A stretch of DNA of 64,000 nucleotides from Oscillospiraceae bacterium. Lineage in GTDB: Bacteria; Bacillota; Clostridia; Oscillospirales; Ruminococcaceae. The DNA is taken from contig JAFTXQ010000003.1 in the NCBI GenBank assembly GCA_017461565.1, positions 1-64,000 on the forward strand, given 5' to 3'. Shown here piece after piece: positions 6,229-23,732 of this stretch. The notes beneath the pieces are model-generated. The model worked only from the letters and a program-made list of their open reading frames with translations. It was not told the origin of the DNA and made no database searches. The translations under genes and the position numbers were made by a program. The stretch's first letter is position 1. Each line of letters begins with the position of its first letter.

Positions 6229-7416
6229 ATGTTGACCAGAGAAGAATTTGACAGACAGCTTGCAAAGCTGTCAAACGAGCAGGAGCAGCTTATCCGCCGC
6301 CCCAACCCCAAGAGTGATTTTTACAACGGCATATATGACCGTTATGAAAACCCTGTACTTACAGCTGCGCACGCACCTATCATCTGGAGATATGATCTCT
6401 CTTACAATGATAATCCCAATCTTATGGAGCGCCTTGGGATCAATGCTGTGATGAACAGCGGCGCTATCTACCTCAACGGCAAGTACTGCCTTGTTGCAAG
6501 AGTAGAGGGCAACGATCGCAAGAGCTTCTTTGCTGTTGCGGAAAGCGACAAGCCCACAGAGGGCTTCCGCTTCAGAGATTATCCCGTGATACTTCCCGAC
6601 ACCTGCCCCGAAGAGACCAATGTATATGATATGCGCCTTACCCAGCACGAAGACGGCTGGATATACGGCGTGTTCTGTTCTGAGAGCAAGGATACAGAGT
6701 CCAACGACCTTTCCGCTGCCAATGCACAGGCAGGAATAGTGCGCACAAAGGATCTTGTGACATGGGAGCGTCTGCCCAACCTTATCTCAAAATCTCCCCA
6801 GCAGAGAAACGTGGTGCTTCATCCCGAATTCGTTGACGGAAAGTACGCATTCTATACCCGTCCGCAGGATGATTTTATCTCTACAGGTTCGGGCGGAGGC
6901 GTCTGCTTCGCACTGTGCGAGGATATAACAAATCCTGTTCTTTGTACAGAAGAAGTAGTGGTAAGCCCCAGAGTATATCATACTATTACCGAAGTCAAAA
7001 ATGGCGCAGGCGCCGTTCCGATAAAGACCCCCAAGGGCTGGATACACATTGCCCACGGCGTAAGAAATACCGCAGCAGGTCTGCGTTATGTTATCTATGT
7101 TTTCGCAACCGATCTGAACGATCCCAAGAAGCTTATCGCTTCCCCCTCAGGTCTGTTCATTGCGCCTCAGGGAGAGGAGCGTGTCGGAGACGTTTCCAAT
7201 GTTGCCTTCACAAACGGAGCCATTGTCCGTGAAAACGGCGAGGTATATATCTATTATGCTTCCTCCGACACAAGACTGCACGTTGCTTCCACTACTATTG
7301 AGAAGCTGATGGACTACACCTTCAACACGCCTTCAGACCCGCTTCGCTCCGCCGACTGCGTAAAGCAGCGCTGCGAGCTTATTTCAAAGAACCTTGGCGG
7401 GGAGAAGAAGATATGA
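6229..7416 (+). CDS. 4-O-beta-D-mannosyl-D-glucose phosphorylase (GH130)
   Basis: The 395-residue, signal-less protein matches GH130 subfamily 1, the mannosylglucose phosphorylases typified by RaMP1 of R. albus. They phosphorolyse Man-beta-1,4-Glc to mannose 1-phosphate and glucose in the cytoplasm, the last step of beta-mannan use after epimerisation of mannobiose. Visible features: the five-bladed beta-propeller pattern, the conserved NVYDMR segment with the presumed general acid Asp134, and basic phosphate-binding residues. AAAGGAAC precedes the ATG. The 3' end overlaps the NUDIX gene by four bases. No epimerase or permease is adjacent. Subfamily assignment is from memory of the family and needs alignment. 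Confidence 0.88.
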
Positions 7417-7958: not shown

Positions 7959-10235
7959 TTGGACAAAAGAACGGCTATCGCAAAAATAAAAGCTCTCGCC
8001 GAAAGCGGCGACACGAGCGGAAGCAATATAGAAGCGGTGTTTGCCCGCTGTTACAATGCTATAAAGAAAACGCTGGATATGACTCCGTTTGATGAGCAGC
8101 TCTCTGCTGCCCTGTCGCTGAGTGACGGCAGGATGGTGCAGATGCAGACAGGAGAAGGCAAGACGCTTGCTGCCGTATTTGCAGCCTGTGCAGAGGCGTT
8201 GAACGGAGGGGGAGTTCACATCCTGACCTTTAACGATTATCTTGCAAAGCGTGATTATAACTGGATGAAGCCCGTTTATGACGAGATGGGCGTATCGGTC
8301 GGATATATAACAGAAAGCACCGACCGTGTACAGCGTAGGGAGCAATACAAGAAGCAGGTGGTATATCTCACAGCTAAGGAAGCGGGATTTGATTATCTTC
8401 GTGATTTTGTGTGCTTTGAGCCTGACGATATGGTCTTTCCCGAAGAGCTGAACCTGGCGATAGTGGACGAAGCCGATAGTATACTCATTGATGAAGCACG
8501 TATCCCTCTTGTTATTGCAGGAGACATCGCCGCACAGGATAGCAGCGACGTTGCCGAAGTATACGAAAAGCTCAGCGGTTTTGAGGAAGATTCTGAATTT
8601 GAGATAGATGAAGAAAGCCGCAACGTATACCTCACCGACGAGGGTGCCGATAAGGCCGAAAGCATCTTCAGCTGCAATGTTTACAGCTCAGAGGGCGCAC
8701 CGCTGCTTGCAAAGATATGCGCCTGCCTTAAGGCTGACGCTGTGCTGAAAGAGGATAAGGACTACATCGTAAAGGACAACAGCATAATCCTTGTAGATGA
8801 ATTCACGGGACGTGCTGCCGCAGGACGTGTCTTTCCCGGCGACCTGCAAGCTGCCGTAGAGGCAAAGCACGGTCTGAAAATAACCTCCCGTGGACGTATC
8901 ATGGGAAATATTGCGCTGCAATATTTTGCACGCCTTTACCCTAAGCTTGCCGGCATGACAGGTACAGCAGAGCTTGCACGTGAGGAATTTGAAAAACTGT
9001 ACGGACTCAGCACAGATATCATTCCCACCAGGCTTCCATGTCGCCGTACCGACCATCCGCTTGAGATGTATTTCGATGGTGCGGAAAAGCGCAGGGCTGT
9101 TTTGACCGCAATAAAAGAGGCAGCCGAAATACAGCGCCCTGTGTTGGTAGGTACGGAAAGCATAGAGGAGTCCGAAGAGCTTGCCGAGGCACTGCGTCAG
9201 AATGATATAAGCTGCGCTGTACTGAATGCAAAAAATGACGAGCAGGAGGCTGCGATAATTGCCCGTGCAGGAGAAAAGGGAGCTGTCACTATCTCTACAA
9301 ATATGGCAGGACGTGGCGTGGATATAAAGCTTGGCGGCGAGGACTGCCGTGACAAGGATTTCGTTACAGATGCCGGCGGATTGCTGGTGCTTGCCACATC
9401 CATGAGAGAAAGCAGCCGTATCACAAGACAGCTGCGTGGACGTGCAGGACGTCAGGGTGATATCGGAGAAAGCAGATTTTTTGCTGCGCTGGACGATGGA
9501 TTAATGACAAAGTTCGAGCTTAAAAAGCTTGCCGGTCGCCATTATCCTACCCAAAGGATCAGCGGTGCAATACAGGACAAGACCCTGCTTAAAGAAGCGG
9601 ACCGTGTCCAGCGTATTTCAGAGGGCGATACTTTTGATGAACGTATCAATCTTATGAAATACACCATGATCGGTGAAAAGCACCGTGAACAGACCTTCCG
9701 TCGCAGAAAAGCACTGTTGGAGGGCAGCTACAACTCCGATCAGTGGCAGACCCACGCACCTGATATGTACGAAGAGGCTGTAAAGAAATTCGGCGAGAAT
9801 CCCTTGCAGGAAAAGCAGAACCTTATCCTTGCGGCTCTTCTGAACGAATTCTGGTGTGATTATCTGGATTATACCGCATATCTGCGTGAGGGCATCCATC
9901 TGACTCAGGTTGCAGGAAGAAACCCTGCCGAGGAATACAACATTGCCTGTGAGGAGTATTATGACAGCGCTGCGGACAGTATTCCCGAGCGTATGGCAGA
10001 AAAGCTCGGGGAGCTTCTTGAATGCGACTCCATAGAGGAATATGAGGTGCAGATGCCTACAAGGACCTACACCTATCTTCTTGACGATATGGCAGAGGAG
10101 TTCAAAACAAAGCCCCTGCTGCTGAATATATTCGACGAAGAGGAGCCGGAGCCTGATAAAAAAACAACTCCCGAAAAAGCTCCCAAGGAAGAGAAAAAGG
10201 GATTTTTCGCATCCCTGTTCGGAAAAAAGAAATAA
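7959..10235 (+). CDS. SecA-like translocase ATPase paralogue (SecA2-type)
   Basis: The 758-residue protein begins with TTG behind CGGAGGAAAAA. It carries the SecA DEAD motor: Walker A TGEGKT (Lys68), Walker B VDEAD (Asp170-Asp173), the preprotein cross-linking domain, motif VI (RQLRGRAGRQGD) and a helical-wing region (LREGIHLTQVAGRNPAEEY). It is shorter than housekeeping SecA (about 840-900) and lacks the C-terminal CxCx8CH zinc finger; instead it ends in an acidic/basic linker and a Phe/Lys-rich amphipathic tail (GFFASLFGKKK). That suggests an accessory SecA with its own export clients. No secY2 or accessory Sec genes adjoin. A main SecA is presumably elsewhere. Confidence 0.85.
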   Translation: MDKRTAIAKIKALAESGDTSGSNIEAVFARCYNAIKKTLDMTPFDEQLSAALSLSDGRMVQMQTGEGKTLAAVFAACAEALNGGGVHILTFNDYLAKRDYNWMKPVYDEMGVSVGYITESTDRVQRREQYKKQVVYLTAKEAGFDYLRDFVCFEPDDMVFPEELNLAIVDEADSILIDEARIPLVIAGDIAAQDSSDVAEVYEKLSGFEEDSEFEIDEESRNVYLTDEGADKAESIFSCNVYSSEGAPLLAKICACLKADAVLKEDKDYIVKDNSIILVDEFTGRAAAGRVFPGDLQAAVEAKHGLKITSRGRIMGNIALQYFARLYPKLAGMTGTAELAREEFEKLYGLSTDIIPTRLPCRRTDHPLEMYFDGAEKRRAVLTAIKEAAEIQRPVLVGTESIEESEELAEALRQNDISCAVLNAKNDEQEAAIIARAGEKGAVTISTNMAGRGVDIKLGGEDCRDKDFVTDAGGLLVLATSMRESSRITRQLRGRAGRQGDIGESRFFAALDDGLMTKFELKKLAGRHYPTQRISGAIQDKTLLKEADRVQRISEGDTFDERINLMKYTMIGEKHREQTFRRRKALLEGSYNSDQWQTHAPDMYEEAVKKFGENPLQEKQNLILAALLNEFWCDYLDYTAYLREGIHLTQVAGRNPAEEYNIACEEYYDSAADSIPERMAEKLGELLECDSIEEYEVQMPTRTYTYLLDDMAEEFKTKPLLLNIFDEEEPEPDKKTTPEKAPKEEKKGFFASLFGKKK

Positions 10236-13383: not shown

Positions 13384-15438
13384 ATGGAAGCACAACAGAA
13401 AAAACGCAGAAAAACATCACGTAAAAGCACCGCAAAAAAACCTGTACGCCGCACCAGAAAACAACAGGGCGACATAATTTTTGCACTGGATATCGGCACA
13501 CGTACCGTTGTGGGTATACTTGCCGAAAAGGTTGACAATGGCTATAAAATAATCGATATGGAGACCGCTGTACACGAAAAGCGCTCTATGACTGATGGTC
13601 AGATAGAGGATATAGAAGCAGTGGCGCAGGTGATCAAAAACGTAAAGACTGCACTTGAAAAGCGTCGCATGATAAAGCTTTCCCGTGTGTGCATTGCCGC
13701 TGCAGGACGTGCCTTAAGAACTATGCGCAATACCGCTGTGTGCGACATTTCCGGCAAGCGGTCTATTTCTGCGGAGGATCTGAAAAACGCAGAGCTTGAC
13801 GCTGTGCGTGAGACCGAGGAGAAGTTCTCTGAGGGACAGGAAAGAGCGGCATTCTATTGCGTTGGTCACAGTGTTATCGGACTTTCTCTTGACGGCTACA
13901 AGGTGCAGAAGCCCGAAGGGCACCGTGGCGAAAAGCTGGAGACCGAGATAATCGCAGCTTTCCTGCCTGCGTATGTAGTGGAGAGCCTTTGTGCTGCTGT
14001 TGACATTGCAGGGCTTGATGTTGCGGGACTCACTCTGGAGCCTATCGCAGCAATGAACATCGTTGTTCCGCAGGAGCTTCGCCTTATCAATATCGCACTG
14101 TGCGATATCGGCGCAGGTACATCGGACGTTGCGACCTCCCGTGATGGCAGTGTTGTTGCATACGGAATGGCAACCGTTGCCGGTGATGAGATCACTGAAG
14201 ACATCATGAAAAAGCTTCTCGTGGACTTCAATACAGCCGAAAAGATCAAGACCTGTACAGATCCTGAGATAGAATATACAGATATCCTGCTTATGAGCCA
14301 CACTATCACAGCAGAGCAGATCGCAGAGCTTCTGAAGCCTTCTGCGCAGAACCTGGCTACAACTATCTGCGAGGAGATAATGAGAGCGAACACCGAAGCC
14401 CCTCAGGTTGTCTTTCTTGTAGGCGGCGGCAGCAAGCTTGCAGGACTCCCCGAGCTTGTTGCAAAGGGTCTTGGAATGGACGTTTCACGTGTTATTATGG
14501 GCAGGAAAGAGCTTATGCGTGGCGTGACTGCACCTGCAAATATGCAGATCGGCACCGAACACGCAACGCCTCTCGGAATAGCTATAACCGCTTCCGAGGG
14601 TGTGAAATATGATTTCACGACCATCACTCTGAACGGCAGAAAGATACGCACACTTGACACCAACCGTCTCACTGTGTTCGAGCTTACCGCACTGGGTGGC
14701 ATAAAGCCCGATAAGCTTATGGGACGTTCAGGCAAGGCGCTCTCCTTTACCATCGACGGCCAGCGCACGCTGCTCCGTGGAACTCCGATGACGCCTGCTG
14801 AAATAACTGTTAACGGAAAGCCTGCGTCCCTAAATACTTCGGTTCGCAAGGGCGATGATGTGGTTATCGTCCCTGCAAAGGATGGTGAGGACGCTGTGGC
14901 TTATCTTTCCGACTATCTTGATACAGAGCTTTATTCTGCAGATATCATCTTCTGCGGTGAAAAGATGACAGCCGGTAAATATATACTGGTCAACGATAAG
15001 CCTGTCACGGCTGACGCTGAGATAGAAAACGGCAGCGTTATCACCACAGAAAGCTGCTGTACCTTTGGCGAGCTTTGTGCCCGTGAAGAGGTGCTGCCTG
15101 AATATATGCTTCTTAACGGCGCAAAAGCAGCCGCAGGAACTGCACTCAACGACGGCGACGAGATAACGATGATATCCGAGGGAAAGACTGAATTACCTCA
15201 GCCTCAGCCTGTTGCAGCAAAAACCGAAGCAGAGGAGATACATATCATATTCAATGGCGAGCCTGCGAAGTTCCCTGTTATTGATAGCAGCAGAGAGCCG
15301 ATATTCCTTGATCTTCTTGCTGCTTTCTCGGAAGATCCCACTTCGTTGCTTGCCCATGCAACAACCACTACCATCAACGGAAGGATCGCACGTCTTGGTG
15401 AGACTATCCACGACGGCGACGAAATTATTATCGAATAA
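13384..15438 (+). CDS. FtsA/actin-like ATPase with C-terminal beta-grasp repeats
   Basis: 684 residues. A very basic N-terminal tail (about 1-29, rich in Lys/Arg) leads into an FtsA-type actin fold: phosphate-1 loop ALDIGTRTVVG (about 36-46), SHS2-like insertion, phosphate-2 CDIGAGTSDVA and adenosine motif LVGGGSKLAGL. After about residue 410 there is an extension not found in classical FtsA: repeated beta-grasp-like units, each ending in a pattern of Val/Leu-Asn-Gly followed by Gly-Asp-(D/E)-(V/I)-x-(I/M), at about 473-497, 573-597 and 661-684, with a fourth weaker one near 532-556. The C-terminal amphipathic helix of true FtsA is absent. The stop overlaps the start of the pseudo-GH26 lipoprotein by one base. 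Confidence 0.75.
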   Translation: MEAQQKKRRKTSRKSTAKKPVRRTRKQQGDIIFALDIGTRTVVGILAEKVDNGYKIIDMETAVHEKRSMTDGQIEDIEAVAQVIKNVKTALEKRRMIKLSRVCIAAAGRALRTMRNTAVCDISGKRSISAEDLKNAELDAVRETEEKFSEGQERAAFYCVGHSVIGLSLDGYKVQKPEGHRGEKLETEIIAAFLPAYVVESLCAAVDIAGLDVAGLTLEPIAAMNIVVPQELRLINIALCDIGAGTSDVATSRDGSVVAYGMATVAGDEITEDIMKKLLVDFNTAEKIKTCTDPEIEYTDILLMSHTITAEQIAELLKPSAQNLATTICEEIMRANTEAPQVVFLVGGGSKLAGLPELVAKGLGMDVSRVIMGRKELMRGVTAPANMQIGTEHATPLGIAITASEGVKYDFTTITLNGRKIRTLDTNRLTVFELTALGGIKPDKLMGRSGKALSFTIDGQRTLLRGTPMTPAEITVNGKPASLNTSVRKGDDVVIVPAKDGEDAVAYLSDYLDTELYSADIIFCGEKMTAGKYILVNDKPVTADAEIENGSVITTESCCTFGELCAREEVLPEYMLLNGAKAAAGTALNDGDEITMISEGKTELPQPQPVAAKTEAEEIHIIFNGEPAKFPVIDSSREPIFLDLLAAFSEDPTSLLAHATTTTINGRIARLGETIHDGDEIIIE

Positions 15439-17087
15439 TGAAACGATATTTTAAAAAACTGATGCTGGTCATTCTTTCCGCTTCGCTACTAAGCGGATGT
15501 GCGACGATCCCTGACAAGGCTTCGTCCCTTGCACCTGCCGAAACGGCAGAAAGCGCCGAAAGCAGCGAGCAGACAGAAGAACCTGTCTTTTACAACGAGG
15601 CCTCACCGCAGGAATACTATATTTTTGAAACAGACGTTTCAATGAAGCTCAACGCCGAGGGCGGAGTGTTTGACAGCGCTATACGTACAGACGGAAGCTA
15701 TGACGGTAACGGCTATGTGCTGCTTGAGAATGAAGCAACACTTGTGCATATCGCAGAGATACCGTATACACAGCATTACCGTATCATGCTGGCAGCTTTC
15801 TCATACGACGGCGCAGCGATAAGCCTTTCCGCAGGAAAAACAAATATCGGCACGTATTATATTCCGCCATCCGAGGAGGCTGAGTTCACGCTCTTCTCGG
15901 TGGATAACCTGTTCTTTGAAAGCGACCCTGTCATGCTGACGCTTCAGATGATCTCAGGTACTGCTGCGATAGACTATATCCTTATCGAGGACAGCAAGCC
16001 TGTATCTGACGACTGCTACGATACACGTTCTCGTGTGGTAGGGAAAAATACGGGTATGCACACCATCAGTACAATGAAATATATGACGGATATCTACGGC
16101 GAGCGCATACTGACTGCACAGAATGTCACCCCCGGCACAAACGCCGAAATAGACGCTGTTTTTGATGTGACGGGAAGATACCCCGCTATCCGCTGCGGCG
16201 ACCTTATATATTCATCCACAAATTCTGACGAGGAATATGCAGAGACTGCCGAAAAGGAGATAGAGCTTGCTCTTGAATGGGGCAGAAACAACGGAATTGT
16301 GTCCTTTGGCTGGCATTGGTACTCGCCGCACAAATATGGTTCTCATTATTATACCGAGCTGACATTGTTCGAGCTTTCGGATGCGGTTACAGAACTTGAC
16401 CTCACTGAAGCCACTCCCGAAGAGCTGCAGAGCCTGTACGAAAACGAATCGATCACTGAGGATTGCTATCTGCTGATACAGGATATTGATAACATTGCAA
16501 AACAGCTTCTGCGCTTCAAGGATGAAGAGATAACCGTGCTTTGGCAGCCGCTGCCCGACGGAGAGACCGACCTTTATTGGTGGGGCGGTAGCGCCGATGA
16601 CTACAAATGGCTGTGGAGGTTTATGTTCGAGCGTATGAACACCTATCACAAGCTGAACAACCTTATTTGGGTATGGAACGGCAGCAGCGAGGAGTTTTAC
16701 CCCGGAGATTACTTCTGTGATATTATAGGGCAGGGAATGTTCCTGGATTCGGATGCGTCTTTTGCTGATAGATTTTCGGCGTTGAGCGCACTTCCGGATG
16801 CTGAGGCAAAACCGGTGGCGATAACAGCTTGTGATGTTTCGCCGTCCCCTGACCACATGAACAGAGACAACGCCATGTGGCTGTGGACCTCAATACAGAG
16901 CGGAGAGTATATCATAAACTCCGATGGCAGCTATACTGAAGCATTTACCGACAAAGAAATGCTGAACGCCATATATAATGCGAAGCTTACAGTTGCACGG
17001 GATGAGCTCCCCGATATTTATTCCTATGCTCTAAAAGTCGACGAGACAGTTGAGACATCAACGCACGAAACTGTTCAGACCGATTGA
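15438..17087 (+). CDS. lipoprotein with CBM35-like and degenerate GH26-like domains
   Basis: 549 residues: a lipoprotein signal peptide (LLSGC near residue 20), an acidic linker, a beta-sandwich domain resembling CBM35 (about 55-185), then a GH26 beta-mannanase-like barrel (about 195-540). The barrel keeps FGWHWYSP and the YWWGG segment, but aligning VLWQPLPDGETDLYWWG (367-383) with the family motif RPxHE puts Asp374 where the acid/base Glu belongs. KPVAITACD (458-466) has Ala464 where the nucleophile Glu belongs. It is therefore probably not a normal mannanase, perhaps a glycan-binding surface protein. The ATG overlaps the stop of the FtsA-like gene, with no clear ribosome site, so translation looks coupled. 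Confidence 0.75.
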   Translation: MKRYFKKLMLVILSASLLSGCATIPDKASSLAPAETAESAESSEQTEEPVFYNEASPQEYYIFETDVSMKLNAEGGVFDSAIRTDGSYDGNGYVLLENEATLVHIAEIPYTQHYRIMLAAFSYDGAAISLSAGKTNIGTYYIPPSEEAEFTLFSVDNLFFESDPVMLTLQMISGTAAIDYILIEDSKPVSDDCYDTRSRVVGKNTGMHTISTMKYMTDIYGERILTAQNVTPGTNAEIDAVFDVTGRYPAIRCGDLIYSSTNSDEEYAETAEKEIELALEWGRNNGIVSFGWHWYSPHKYGSHYYTELTLFELSDAVTELDLTEATPEELQSLYENESITEDCYLLIQDIDNIAKQLLRFKDEEITVLWQPLPDGETDLYWWGGSADDYKWLWRFMFERMNTYHKLNNLIWVWNGSSEEFYPGDYFCDIIGQGMFLDSDASFADRFSALSALPDAEAKPVAITACDVSPSPDHMNRDNAMWLWTSIQSGEYIINSDGSYTEAFTDKEMLNAIYNAKLTVARDELPDIYSYALKVDETVETSTHETVQTD

Positions 17088-17112
17088 CAAAACGGTTTTA
17101 AATTGGTATATT
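17084..17112 (+). promoter_or_regulatory. promoter of the SGNH esterase lipoprotein gene
   Basis: TTGACA (17084-17089), 17 bp, TATATT (17107-17112). The -35 box overlaps the stop codon of the upstream gene, and there is no terminator between them, so read-through may also contribute. Confidence 0.8.
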
Positions 17113-17146: not shown

Positions 17147-18490
17147 ATGAAAAAGTTTTTATCTGTAATGCTGGCAGCGGCAATGATAACCTCTATGACC
17201 GCCTGCAATCAGAACACCTCATCCGAAAGCGGAGCATCGTCCGATAACGGAAGCTCTGCCGTACAGGACAACAGCAGTGCTACATCAGACAACAGCTCTG
17301 ACAGTGGCACCTCCTCCGCTGAAAGCACCTCCACCGAAAGCAAGCCTGATGAGATTCCCGAAGTAGCATACGAGCTTGGCGGAGAGCTTACTCCCACAAT
17401 GATTGCAAATTCCGTACTCAACAAGGGCAATCAGGCACGTCTTGCCAAGGTGATCAAAAAGCTTCAGGCAGGCGAAAGCGTTACTGTGGCTTATCTTGGC
17501 GGCTCTATCACTCAGGGCAGCTCCGCAGGCAACGACCTTTGCTATGCACGTCTTACGACCGACTGGCTGATGGAGCAGTTTCCTGATGCAACTATCAACT
17601 ATGTCAACGCAGGCATAGGCGCAACAGGTTCTTATATTGGTATTCATCGTGCCGACCGGGATGTGCTGGCACACGATCCTGACCTTGTGTTTATTGATTT
17701 CACTGTAAACGATACAGGCGATCGCATGACTATCAACAAGGCAACATACGAAGGCCTTATCAGAAAGCTCTGGAGCCATGATACAGCACCTGCGATCATC
17801 ACGATAGCCATGACCCAGGAGGATGGCACCAGCGTCCAGAATGATCACAGCGAGATCGCAATTAAGTATGATATCCCCATGATCTCTTACCGCAATGCTA
17901 TACTGGATGTCATTGATAAGGGGTACATCGTATGGGATGATATCTCAGACGACAACATCCACCCCAATGTTCCGGGTCACGCAGTGCTGACACAGATGAT
18001 CACAAATTACATCCAGACTGTTATCGATGATATCGACAGCATAGACACCGCCGAACCTGAGCTTCCCGGTACTACCGACAGTGGCATGAAGTATCAGAAT
18101 GCCGAGATCGTTGTTCCTAATGATACACGCTGCACCGCAACAGGCAATTTTGAGGTTTACAACAACAATTTCGGCAACTTCGGCGATTCCTGGGTAGCAA
18201 AGATCAGCGCAGGCACTGAGATCACAGGAGGCCTTGAGTTCACCGTTACTGCTCAGAACATCGGTATTCTTTACGGAGAGCTTATCAAGAACGGCGGCAC
18301 GCTTGATATATATGTTGACGACGAGCTCAGAACAAGCATCGACTGCAACTTCCCCAATGGATGGGGCAACTACGTTGAGTTCCAGGAGATAGCAAGCTTT
18401 ATGGCACCGGGTGAGCATACAGTCAAGATCATCCCTCACGACAACACAAAGTCATTTATATATTACATTTCAGCGCTCACCATCAGCTAA
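17147..18490 (+). CDS. SGNH/GDSL-type esterase lipoprotein
   Basis: 447 residues: a lipoprotein signal peptide (ITSMTAC), a long Ser/Asp/Thr-rich linker, then an SGNH hydrolase domain. Block I is GGSITQG with Ser120, block II NAGIGATGS, block III VND with Asn188, and block V DNIHP with Asp269 and His272. A beta-rich C-terminal domain (about 320-447) follows and may bind carbohydrate. Enzymes of this type de-acetylate xylan or other acetylated polysaccharides at the cell surface; the exact carbohydrate-esterase family is not settled here. AAGGAG precedes the ATG, and a strong terminator follows. Confidence 0.85.
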   Translation: MKKFLSVMLAAAMITSMTACNQNTSSESGASSDNGSSAVQDNSSATSDNSSDSGTSSAESTSTESKPDEIPEVAYELGGELTPTMIANSVLNKGNQARLAKVIKKLQAGESVTVAYLGGSITQGSSAGNDLCYARLTTDWLMEQFPDATINYVNAGIGATGSYIGIHRADRDVLAHDPDLVFIDFTVNDTGDRMTINKATYEGLIRKLWSHDTAPAIITIAMTQEDGTSVQNDHSEIAIKYDIPMISYRNAILDVIDKGYIVWDDISDDNIHPNVPGHAVLTQMITNYIQTVIDDIDSIDTAEPELPGTTDSGMKYQNAEIVVPNDTRCTATGNFEVYNNNFGNFGDSWVAKISAGTEITGGLEFTVTAQNIGILYGELIKNGGTLDIYVDDELRTSIDCNFPNGWGNYVEFQEIASFMAPGEHTVKIIPHDNTKSFIYYISALTIS

Positions 18491-18632: not shown

Positions 18633-20261
18633 TTACTTTCTCTTGCGGGAGATAACTACTGCTGCACCTGCGAGAGCTACTACACCAGCGATAGCAGCGA
18701 TACCCTCAACGCCTGTGTCGGGGGACTGCTTGTCTGTTGTGGGAGCGTCTGTATCCTGAGAAGCATCGCCTGTCTCGGGAGTGGGGATAACAACGTCATC
18801 GTATGTGATCTCGCCGATTACATTGCCCTCTGCGTCATAAGCTTTGATAGCTGCGAGCTGAACGCCAGCCTCAACGCCGTTCCACCAGTTCTGGAGCTGG
18901 ATGTGAGCGAAGGAAACTGTGCCATCCTCTGCAACTGCTACGATGTCAGCAAGAGGTGTGTCAGTGATGTCGATGATTGTCTGTGTAGCTGTGCCATCGG
19001 GCTCAACTGCTGCGTTTGCATTAGCTGCACCGTACTCAGGACCAGCGATCCAGCTTGTGCCGTCCTCAAGAACTGCACCGTTGCCGAGGCCTGCGCCACC
19101 GCACCAGCCACCGAGACCGGGTGTCCATACGAATGTAGCGTCGATCTTAGCGAGGTCTGTCCAGTTATCGCCTACGAGAGCGTAGAGGTCGATAGCTGTA
19201 TCTGTACCGAATACGAAAGACTCGTTTGCTTCTGTTGCTGCATCGAGATCATAAGAATCCCAAGCATCTTCAGCGGAAGCGTCACCTGTTTCGCCAGCGT
19301 CGCCGCCAACTTCGCCCTCTTCGATCTCGAGAGAGGTGAATGCAAATGCGGACTCGCCTGTTGTGTCGTCTAACCAGCACTGAGCGATGATCTCAACAGT
19401 AACATCATCACCAGCAGAGATGTCAACGGGCATTTCAACTGCGATAGAGCCTTCGTCAGCCATAACTGCGAAATCAGCGGGAGAGATAACAACCTCGTCC
19501 TCTGTCTCAGCGTTGAGAGTTACATCCCAACCAACCTGTGTGCCTGCAAATACGTAGTACTCTGTAACATCGTTTACTGTAACAGCGATAGTGGAGTTGC
19601 ACCATGCGTTCCAGTTAACGTTTGCGTTATCTGTGATAAGATCGATATTAGCGGTGAGCTTTGTCATATCGATAGCAGCCTCGCCCTCCATGATTGTGTA
19701 GGGAGAGTTTGCAGCATTTATTGCGATTGCCTCTGTTGCTGTATCGCCGTCGTCTTCTGCGATATCAGAAATAAGAGCCTCGCCGTCAGCACCGAGAACG
19801 GACATAGCCTCAACTGTTACATCGAGACCCCAAGCCTGAAGCCAGAGCTGCATATATGTATCAGTAGAATCGAAAAGGGGCTCTTCCTGAAGAAGAGTGA
19901 TAACGCCATCCTCGCCGAGAACGATGGGCTTAGCGCCGGAAGCCTGACCCCACTCTGTGGAAGCCCAGCCTGTGGACTCAGAGTTTGTACCGATACCGCC
20001 ACCGATCCAAGCTTCGCCGTTTACATCCTCGGGAGTTACATCGAGAACTACCTCGAAACCGTAAACGTCATCAACTGTCAGACCGTATTCAGTCAGCATA
20101 TCAATGTTTTCGCCGAAAAGAGTTACAACTGCATCAGCAGTACCATCAGCAGCATCAATACCGCTGTTGGAAGTAACAGTAGCTGCACTTACGTTAAAAG
20201 CAGTAGCGGAAAGTGCAATAGCAGCTGCTGTGGAAGCAGCTAAAAGCTTTCTTAACTTCAT
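18633..20261 (-). CDS. surface protein with three CBM-like repeats and SPDTG sorting signal
   Basis: 542 residues from the ATG at 20261, preceded by AGGAGG; the longer frame is leader. Residues 1-27 are a Sec signal peptide ending AFNVSAA. Three related modules follow (about 58-165, 205-315, 355-485). The first and third share W-x-GG-x-G around residues 85-91 and 386-392, and a similar closing strand (QLWLQAW, HIQLQNWW, then an Asp-x-Glu-Gly turn). The C-terminus is a cell-wall sorting signal: SPDTG (513-517), a hydrophobic helix, and SRKRK. The modules may be carbohydrate-binding (family 37 modules of R. albus would be one candidate). Composition is very acidic. Codon bias suggests high expression. 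Confidence 0.75.
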   Translation of the reverse strand: MKLRKLLAASTAAAIALSATAFNVSAATVTSNSGIDAADGTADAVVTLFGENIDMLTEYGLTVDDVYGFEVVLDVTPEDVNGEAWIGGGIGTNSESTGWASTEWGQASGAKPIVLGEDGVITLLQEEPLFDSTDTYMQLWLQAWGLDVTVEAMSVLGADGEALISDIAEDDGDTATEAIAINAANSPYTIMEGEAAIDMTKLTANIDLITDNANVNWNAWCNSTIAVTVNDVTEYYVFAGTQVGWDVTLNAETEDEVVISPADFAVMADEGSIAVEMPVDISAGDDVTVEIIAQCWLDDTTGESAFAFTSLEIEEGEVGGDAGETGDASAEDAWDSYDLDAATEANESFVFGTDTAIDLYALVGDNWTDLAKIDATFVWTPGLGGWCGGAGLGNGAVLEDGTSWIAGPEYGAANANAAVEPDGTATQTIIDITDTPLADIVAVAEDGTVSFAHIQLQNWWNGVEAGVQLAAIKAYDAEGNVIGEITYDDVVIPTPETGDASQDTDAPTTDKQSPDTGVEGIAAIAGVVALAGAAVVISRKRK

Positions 20262-20319
20262 AAGAAACATCCTCCTAAAAATTAAATGTGGGATAGATAA
20301 TACTAAATCCTCATCATTA

Positions 20320-20348
20320 ATTATACAATATTCATGTCCAAATTGCAA
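20320..20348 (-). promoter_or_regulatory. promoter of the SPDTG surface protein gene
   Basis: On the minus strand TTGCAA (20343-20348), 17 bp, TATAAT (20320-20325). It gives a leader of about 50 bases before the AGGAGG site. Confidence 0.75.
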
Positions 20349-20466: not shown

Positions 20467-20913
20467 TTAATCATCCTTGCGTGCAGATACTGCCATACCC
20501 ACACCGCCAAGTGCAAGTGCCGCTACCGCAGCGTAAGCAAAGGGCACACCTGTTACGGGGTTTGTCGGAGCGTTGTCAACAACGATATCAGATGTTTCGT
20601 CGTCTGTCACATCTGTTGTTGTGTCGGTTGTGTTTCCGCCTGTTGTATTATTGGTATCACCGTTGGGATTACCGTTTGTGTTACCATCTGCTGCACTACC
20701 GACATTTCCTCCTGTTGTACCGTTGTTGTCGCCTGTAACGGCGTCAGTCACGTCATCTACAACGCTTTCGCCTGCGTATACTACATCGTTGACTATATTT
20801 TCACCTGCATTGACCACATTTCCGACAGCGCCGCCGTTCGCCGCAAATGCCGAAACAGCGATCACTGATGCTGCCGCAAGTGCAGCCGACAGGGAGATCG
20901 ATCTTCTGAGCAT
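20467..20913 (-). CDS. small secreted protein with NPVTG sorting signal
   Basis: 148 residues: a signal peptide ending in AVSAFA, a Val/Asn/Asp-rich stretch, a low-complexity Gly/Asn/Thr/Asp linker (about 60-110), then NPVTG, a hydrophobic helix and a short charged tail (SARKDD). The middle has no recognisable domain, so it may be a spacer or a small wall-attached protein. It has a GGAGAA ribosome site. With its downstream neighbour it forms a pair of presumed sortase substrates; no sortase gene is in the window. Confidence 0.75.
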   Translation of the reverse strand: MLRRSISLSAALAAASVIAVSAFAANGGAVGNVVNAGENIVNDVVYAGESVVDDVTDAVTGDNNGTTGGNVGSAADGNTNGNPNGDTNNTTGGNTTDTTTDVTDDETSDIVVDNAPTNPVTGVPFAYAAVAALALGGVGMAVSARKDD

Positions 20914-21523: not shown

Positions 21524-23644
21524 TCAGCTATTGGCAACATATTTAAGTATTTCTACTGCGTCATCAACACGTATCCAGCCGTCGCCGGTAATATCCAGCG
21601 ATGCTTTGGTATGATATCCCTCAAGTGTGACATCTCCCAGAATGGCACGGAGTATCAGTGCTGCGTCAAGGACTGTCGGCTTGCCGTCGCCGTCACCGTC
21701 GCCCGGAACCATAACGTGATAAAGGGTCTCGCCGTCAGATGACACCGTCATTCCGGTGGAGATAAGTTCGTCATCCGCTACTGCATTACCGTTTTTATCA
21801 CACACCTCGACATACTTTCCGTATTTCAGGGCGTTTTTCAGCTTGGATACGGTATATTTTTCCTTGAATTTGCAGGCTATCGTAAGCTTTTCGTGATTGA
21901 CTGTCAGCTTTTCGGACTGAAGCTCAAAATTCTGTATAACGGAGCTTATGAAGTAATCTCCGCCACGGTCGATCGTAAAAGAAGTCTTTCCGCCCTTTAC
22001 CGAAACCTTCTTTACAAGCTGAGACCTGTTTGCTGTTGCATCCCAGCGATAAAGATAATATATACCCTTTGTATATCTGTCTGAAACATCCACGGTAACA
22101 GCGGCTGTTCCCGGGAATTCTGTCTTACAGGCAAAGGAGATCAGCTGATAATCGCTTGCGCTTCCTACCTCAAAGCGGATAGCCTCTTCGTACTCTGAGG
22201 AACGTGTGATCTCAGGGTCAAAGTCGGCAGGCGCAGAAACATTCTTACCGTTGAATATCCACGAATACTCCTTGCCGTCACGGGTGACGCCCGAAGCGGT
22301 CACATCCTCATCCTCTCCGTAAATTGCATCAAAAGCGCTTTTGGGGATAATGTCGGGCTTGGTCCTCAGCGTGGGGGAGAGATTTGCCTGTGCTGTCTGA
22401 TATGAGCGGATAGCGGCATTGGCGTCCAAAATAGAAGTTTCAGCGTCATTGGCTGCCGCCTGCATAGCAGACACTGCATTTGCAAGATCGCTCCAGCTTT
22501 CGGTGGAATAGTCCTCCTCATTAAAGCTCTGTGATATTGTGATAAGCTCGTTCAGCAGCTTTTTTGTAGACTCGGAAACACCCTTGATCAGCTCGTTTGT
22601 CGCAGTCTGCAAGCTGTTGAGTGCATTGCGCAGCATAAGCGCATCTGCCGCTTCGTAAGCGATGACCGCTTTGGCAGATTTCAGTGCGGCGTCGAATTTA
22701 TTCCAGCTGCCTGCGGTATATTCGGATTGTACGAAAGCTTCGTTTTCTGCGATCATGGACTCAAGCTTTGCTTTTACCGAGGTGGCGTCGTTTCCGTCAA
22801 GGAAGTAGACCTTGAATGATGTTACCGCATTGTAATTCTCATAAGCAAGCGCAAGACCTGCGGTACCTGTTGCGGAGCCTGTTTTTGTAACTGTGCCATC
22901 CTCTCCGATGAAGCCCGAAAGGTCGATATCGACCATAACCTCTCTGTTTTTGGAATAGCTCGGATCATTCACAGATCCGACAGGGATATCATAAGTAGGA
23001 AGCGAGGGATCGTAGAAGAATTTGGGGAGCGCAGTCTCATCGCTGAGCTCAAGCGCAGACAGCACCTTGTCCTTAAAGGCATTTACATTCACAGGCTCTC
23101 CCAGCATAAAGTAGTAAGTGGGATTGGGCAATACTACCGAACGCTGATCCTCAATGCCTATGATGTTGTCGGATATATCCTTTTCGTCGATATCGAGGCC
23201 AACATACCATGAGGGGACTGATGTAAGATAGTTACCACTTATGTCCACCGATCTCAGTGCATAGCATTTTCTGAGATCAAGAGATTGTACTGCCGCACTT
23301 GTGAGGTTGTTGTCAGAAAGATCCAGCACACGTAGACGCGGCATATATTCTATGATCTGCGGTACGCCTTTTATTCCCAGATCGCTGAGGTCGAGCACGG
23401 TTATCTCCTCAAGGTCGCCAAAGGTTATCTTTTCGAGGTCTTTTCCCGCTGCTTTAGCGATTATGCTGAGTACTTTCTGATTTTTTACCGTACCTCCGAG
23501 GTAAAACAACGTGGGATCTGATTTATATACAAGGTCTTTCTCATTATATGTCGCAGCGCTTGCCGTGAATGTCATGGTCGGAACCGATGATGCTGCAATA
23601 CTTCCTGCAAGGAGCGCCGCAAGGAGTTTTCTCTTTAAAGTCAT
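21524..23644 (-). CDS. secreted leucine-rich repeat and dockerin protein
   Basis: About 706 residues from the ATG at 23644, seven bases after AAAGGATG; an ATG nine bases further up is possible. In order: signal peptide (1-30), leucine-rich repeats (about 60-150, with the L-x-x-L-x-L-S-x-N pattern), an extended linker, two FIVAR-like helical pairs (about 285-400), a beta-rich region, and a C-terminal type I dockerin. The dockerin has two Ca-binding loops, GDGDGDGKPTVLDAA and DITGDGWIRVDDA. It should attach to a cohesin-bearing surface protein; no cohesin is in the window. LRR plus dockerin suggests binding rather than catalysis, since I see no hydrolase domain. Confidence 0.82.
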   Translation of the reverse strand: MTLKRKLLAALLAGSIAASSVPTMTFTASAATYNEKDLVYKSDPTLFYLGGTVKNQKVLSIIAKAAGKDLEKITFGDLEEITVLDLSDLGIKGVPQIIEYMPRLRVLDLSDNNLTSAAVQSLDLRKCYALRSVDISGNYLTSVPSWYVGLDIDEKDISDNIIGIEDQRSVVLPNPTYYFMLGEPVNVNAFKDKVLSALELSDETALPKFFYDPSLPTYDIPVGSVNDPSYSKNREVMVDIDLSGFIGEDGTVTKTGSATGTAGLALAYENYNAVTSFKVYFLDGNDATSVKAKLESMIAENEAFVQSEYTAGSWNKFDAALKSAKAVIAYEAADALMLRNALNSLQTATNELIKGVSESTKKLLNELITISQSFNEEDYSTESWSDLANAVSAMQAAANDAETSILDANAAIRSYQTAQANLSPTLRTKPDIIPKSAFDAIYGEDEDVTASGVTRDGKEYSWIFNGKNVSAPADFDPEITRSSEYEEAIRFEVGSASDYQLISFACKTEFPGTAAVTVDVSDRYTKGIYYLYRWDATANRSQLVKKVSVKGGKTSFTIDRGGDYFISSVIQNFELQSEKLTVNHEKLTIACKFKEKYTVSKLKNALKYGKYVEVCDKNGNAVADDELISTGMTVSSDGETLYHVMVPGDGDGDGKPTVLDAALILRAILGDVTLEGYHTKASLDITGDGWIRVDDAVEILKYVANS

Positions 23645-23732
23645 TATTAACATCCTTTCTTAAAGGTTTCCCCGATCAATAAGCTTTTAAACGCAAAATG
23701 ACCATATATATTGATATTATTAAGAACCGCAC

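Follow-up and report, generated by a model that had tools for sequence, protein, structure and literature searches.

Pseudoglycosidases are known from a few families, with YKL-39 (GH18), klotho (GH1), and CyRPA (GH33) among the examples given in PMC7828330, and a search of the open-licence PMC literature found no GH26 pseudoenzyme. In active GH26 proteins, the two catalytic glutamates sit at the ends of strands beta4 (acid/base) and beta7 (nucleophile), and five further residues are found family-wide, namely His125, His187, Trp193, Tyr259, and Trp323 in BoMan26A (as presented in PMC5217682). The GH26-CBM35 beta-mannanase of Podospora anserina (3zm8) carries His-Glu at the first site and Glu at the second. 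The protein described here has Pro-Asp and Ala at these places and, unlike 3zm8, is a bacterial lipoprotein. Its close kin include CBM35-GH26 proteins from the same bacterial family (such as L164 and L080), aligned with it over 477 columns. These relatives are unlinked, as an FtsA-like gene was not found ahead of them. They retain WRPLHEASGGWFWWG and MSECATMPD, and in L164 Pfam detects CBM_35 as well as GH26.

The gene lies in a window (the whole stretch of DNA analysed) of 64,000 nucleotides, with the following features:

13384..15438, + strand: FtsA/PilM-like gene (TIGR01174 at 102.6 bits, short of the 175.85 cut-off)
15438..17087, + strand: GH26-like pseudoglycosidase lipoprotein of 549 aa (PF02156, E 4.1e-41; orthologue in 43/43 genomes of the genus)
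15489..15500, + strand: predicted lipobox L-S-G-C with lipidated Cys21
15633..16004, + strand: CBM35-type module, residues 66-189
16020..17030, + strand: GH26 barrel, residues 195-531
16554..16559, + strand: P373-D374, at the site of the His and acid/base Glu of GH26 mannanases (gapless alignment; Pro373 in 43/43 genus sequences)
16827..16829, + strand: A464, at the site of the GH26 nucleophile Glu (gapless alignment; Glu in 1/43 genus sequences)
17147..18490, + strand: SGNH lipoprotein like a CE17 mannan acetylesterase (6hfz, E 9.5e-51 over residues 87-439)

The protein belongs to the GH26 fold family, as its PF02156 match lies above the curated cut-off and its predicted structure is a (beta/alpha)8 barrel. 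The model of the N-terminal module matches a CBM35-type beta-sandwich, though the Pfam CBM_35 profile finds nothing in the window's protein at E 0.01 (it matches 20 of the 79 members of the alignment). Searched against PDB sequences, a profile of the module alone had no convincing match: the first hit was an Fc receptor-like protein (E 0.001, but no individual stretch passed), ahead of CBM6 chains at 0.017. The CBM35-type assignment is thus based on the fold match together with 3zm8. The lipobox points to a lipid anchor, and its Cys21 is kept in at least 90% of 42 aligned sequences. A GH26 fold, a retained CBM35-like module, and a lipid anchor had all been put forward in the original prediction, and all three are borne out, the anchor as a signal in the sequence.

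The same prediction held that both catalytic glutamates are gone, and this also proved correct. Pro373-Asp374 replace His-Glu and Ala464 replaces Glu, in gapless blocks on which three alignments agree (single sequence, profile, and profile-profile, the last over 477 columns with 22 relatives whose motifs are intact). Intact glutamates were sought at the catalytic positions of these alignments, and none is present there in the window's protein. In the predicted model, strand beta4 ends at residue 371 and beta7 at 465, in agreement with the known sites of the GH26 catalytic glutamates; Asp374 occupies the acid/base position of a GH26 beta-mannanase and Ala464 that of the nucleophile. At the sites equivalent to the five further BoMan26A residues, only His293 is kept, the other four being Pro373, Leu379, Phe435, and Gln487 (the last paired with Trp323 by sequence alignment). 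Among the seven GH26-wide residues, counting the two glutamates, His293 is thus the sole survivor. Most of the residues expected to hold mannose in subsite -1 are replaced. The protein also lacks the equivalents of R208, H211, W217, D283, Y285 (Phe instead), and W360 (CjMan26A numbers, used here as labels; nine positions were chosen as active-site).

This loss of residues is a trait of the whole genus, not a quirk of a single genome. All 43 genus genomes analysed carry the gene (some copies are truncated at contig ends, and the copy in G023 is split), and in none of the 43 sequences do both glutamates occur together. Position 374 is Asp in 27, Asn in 12, and Ser, His, Tyr, or Glu in one each. 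Position 464 is Ala in 20, Ser in 16, Phe in two, and Glu, Asn, Arg, Thr, or Gly in one each, the Ala of the split sequence (L058) being an alignment artefact, as its second piece reads Ser. The single-glutamate exceptions are L071, at the nucleophile, and L074, at the acid/base. The genus sequences retain one, two, or three of the seven GH26-wide residues (22, 20, and 1 of 43, respectively), against four to seven in 45 unlinked relatives, 34 of which have all seven. Out of 63 positions conserved in at least 90% of the unlinked relatives, 11 are lost in the genus, and the losses cluster in the active site, with six of the eight named active-site positions among them (hypergeometric 1.6e-4).

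Free variation at the catalytic positions and the one orthologue broken into two frames (L058) are what would be expected if a mannanase gene were drifting neutrally toward a pseudogene. However, the gene is kept in every genome, new residues have become conserved, and across the 16 closest pairs within the genus the GH26 domain shows dN/dS values of 0.05-0.22, which indicates purifying selection. Neutral decay was set aside on the dN/dS values and is highly improbable. A glycosidase fold without its catalytic residues, under selection, is one mark of a pseudoglycosidase, and the protein shows it; the other mark, glycan binding without cleavage, is predicted. The newly conserved residues include Pro373 (43/43) and Gln432 (42/43), both seldom or never seen in the 45 unlinked relatives, and an Asp or Glu at position 376 in all 43 (acidic in 4/45 unlinked relatives). 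Asp466 is found in 39/43 and is likewise rare or absent in the unlinked set. The acidic pair could in principle signify a surviving enzyme whose active site has been displaced by two residues, with D/E376 and D466 substituting for the missing glutamates. Yet in L051, L070, and L073 positions 464 and 466 are both Ala, an acidic residue at +2 is already present in a characterised GH26 (HEAEGG in 3zm8), and the equivalents of His211, Arg208, Trp217, and Asp283 are also gone. With three orthologues lacking the dyad and 3zm8 sharing the acidic +2, a shifted active site was set aside as improbable.

In trees built with the active-site columns masked, the genus sequences form one clade together with their relatives in a second genus (g16) of that family, with support of 99-100. 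A branch with 100/99 support separates 39 sequences from 22 unlinked ones; these 39 comprise 17 of the 43 genus sequences (one of them, L076, without an FtsA-like neighbour), 20 sequences from elsewhere that are linked to an FtsA-like gene, and L094 and L185. The same clade is recovered at SH-aLRT 99 with 71 and with 88 sequences. The linked sequences from elsewhere belong to g16, two being identical to sequences in g16 genomes, and g16 loci occupy that part of the 88-sequence tree; the nearness of the two genera is taken from the tree of this protein only. On the same tree, the fewest state changes are six at E374 and five at E464 (losses and regains not distinguished), and the catalytic residues, so reconstructed, changed repeatedly within the clade.

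Matches occur in 61 of the 71 g16 genomes, at 64 loci that were all read (taken at E 1e-80 or better, in searches with a genus profile that favour near relatives); three loci had no flank. The 48 loci linked to an FtsA-like gene fall into several states: 22 keep both glutamates without the His; eight (L234, L252, L255, L259, L265, L271, L281, and L288) keep the His and an intact nucleophile with Gln at the acid/base; nine keep the nucleophile alone; and nine have neither glutamate. Of the 13 g16 loci without the FtsA-like gene, three are intact and ten degenerate. The complete triad of His-Glu and Glu occurs in none of the 84 linked copies (0/48 in g16, 0/36 in the window's genus). Judged from their residues, the 22 copies in which the preceding His alone is missing may remain active as enzymes. 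Loss of catalytic residues can therefore be claimed for the window's genus and for part of the second genus, but not clade-wide. Loss of the His alone was rejected as a clade marker, as eight of 14 unlinked sequences also lack it (Pro or Asn instead) with both glutamates kept.

The stop codon of the FtsA-like gene overlaps the start of the pseudoglycosidase gene (TAATG), and where flanks are long enough, most genus loci show the order mnmE, trkA, trkA, FtsA-like, with the pseudoglycosidase last. Of the 42 genus loci having upstream sequence, 36 have the FtsA-like gene ahead of the pseudoglycosidase in the same orientation; in four of the six exceptions it is absent and trkA directly precedes the pseudoglycosidase. 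It was also not found beside the clade members L094 and L185, so the link is not obligatory, and a strict dependence on the FtsA-like protein was rejected. Nor is the FtsA-like gene a general marker for GH26: in 40 loci containing it, drawn from 36 genera (some with short downstream sequence), a GH26 gene adjoins only in the three g16 loci. By eye, a "VRQPILD"-type protein follows in about a dozen of the 40 loci, in other genera. A downstream partner common to the whole genus was sought among the genus loci and not found. In the window's genome, which is 93% complete, the FtsA-like protein is the best match to the FtsA model, with no match passing the cut-off. Its C-terminus has ThiS/MoaD-like (ubiquitin-fold) stretches. 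A second SecA, resembling SecA2, is encoded at 7959-10235 (+) before mnmE and lies near it in many genus loci; no NCBIfam SecA model scores above its cut-off.

The original prediction went on to suggest a pseudo-enzyme that binds or senses mannan. The pseudo-enzyme part stands, with both glutamates and further active-site residues gone and their loss fixed throughout the genus, but the mannan part is less well supported. The pseudoglycosidase is the only PF02156 match in 20 of the 43 genus genomes (14 of the 20 have completeness of 90% or more and contamination of 5% or less), and GH130 is missing in 19 of these 20 against 2 of the 23 others (Fisher 5e-9); absence of the mannan pathway was judged here by GH26 and GH130 alone (GH5 and GH113 are other mannanase families). 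Given this pattern, the protein is unlikely to serve mannan catabolism in general, and a GH26 annotation need not imply mannan use.

The window's own genome is of the other kind, with four GH26 paralogues having intact motifs and two GH130 genes, and by this measure it is a mannan user. The pseudoglycosidase might then be an accessory protein whose task is to capture surface beta-mannan for the active GH26, CE17-like, and GH130 enzymes of the genome. Its retained CBM35-type fold fits such a task, as does the CE17-like gene (6HFZ is RiCE17; PMC9487903), which directly follows the pseudoglycosidase here and, on the same strand, in seven other genus loci, with one more locus having it on the opposite strand. 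A divergent GH130-like protein at 6229-7416 (+) in the window's own neighbourhood fits as well. It scores 82 bits, with the NCBIfam mannobiose phosphorylases far below their cut-off, and is 84-92% identical across the five genus loci where it was seen; a second such divergent GH130 occurs in mannan-using members of the genus. On the other side are the 20 genomes in which the protein has no other GH26 match beside it, 19 of which lack GH130 too, and a subsite -1 that is largely replaced. The CE17-like gene, moreover, has its own promoter-like site by consensus scan (17084-17112) and was unseen beside most orthologues, some with short flanks. A mannan-capturing accessory is thus possible but rather unlikely. 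Mannan may still be the ligand in the window's own species, where the gene for the CE17-like mannan esterase adjoins. Farther downstream, two apparently secreted proteins (18633-20348 and 20467-20913, both on the - strand) end in an anchor-like C-terminus and match nothing in Pfam, and a leucine-rich repeat protein with a C-terminal dockerin (21524-23653, - strand) hints at a cellulosome-type surface complex.

We favor, at a probability of about 0.6, a CBM35-GH26 mannanase scaffold held by its lipid anchor on the outer face of the membrane, which does not hydrolyze and acts by binding. The data directly support its fold, anchor signal, and loss of both glutamates; its conservation across the genus under purifying selection; its place in a single clade; and its persistence in genomes that have no other GH26 match and lack GH130. 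A different, non-cutting job is probable because the genus keeps the gene even where there is no sign of a matching mannan pathway; the protein is most likely an exapted, non-hydrolytic surface glycan-binding protein whose core role is other than mannan use. A mannanase copy would have come to lie behind the FtsA-like gene in the common ancestor of the two genera, and catalysis would then have been lost stepwise. In the window's genus, the pocket would have been rebuilt for a new ligand through the conserved P373, D/E376, Q432, and mostly D466. The rebuilt protein would bind a glycan, perhaps one of the envelope or otherwise not mannan, and might have a working link with the FtsA-like protein; a functional tie between the two is speculation. 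The job common to the genus may concern the cell's own envelope. In its fullest and rather doubtful form, this idea makes the former mannanase a core envelope protein whose pocket would bind an endogenous surface glycan, and which would act on the outer side in concert with the FtsA-like protein, a member of the actin family whose gene directly precedes it, with a parallel and unfinished conversion in the second genus.

Comparison with known systems helps to place this clade. The deposited structure 6hpf, of a fungal GH26 mutated in the laboratory, is entered as "inactive E165Q," and its Gln falls in the acid/base column. The eight second-genus relatives with Gln there carry the same substitution naturally; the window's protein differs, with Asp at the acid/base site and Pro before it. 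Several stages of a putative enzyme-to-binder conversion are displayed side by side in the clade: loss of the His, loss of the acid/base (including the natural Glu-to-Gln change), loss of the nucleophile, and a rebuilt pocket. YKL-39, klotho, and CyRPA likewise have a glycosidase fold, have lost catalysis, and are thought to act by binding, as described in PMC7828330. Unlike in those proteins, the loss seen here is in GH26, is bacterial, and recurs within one largely syntenic clade.
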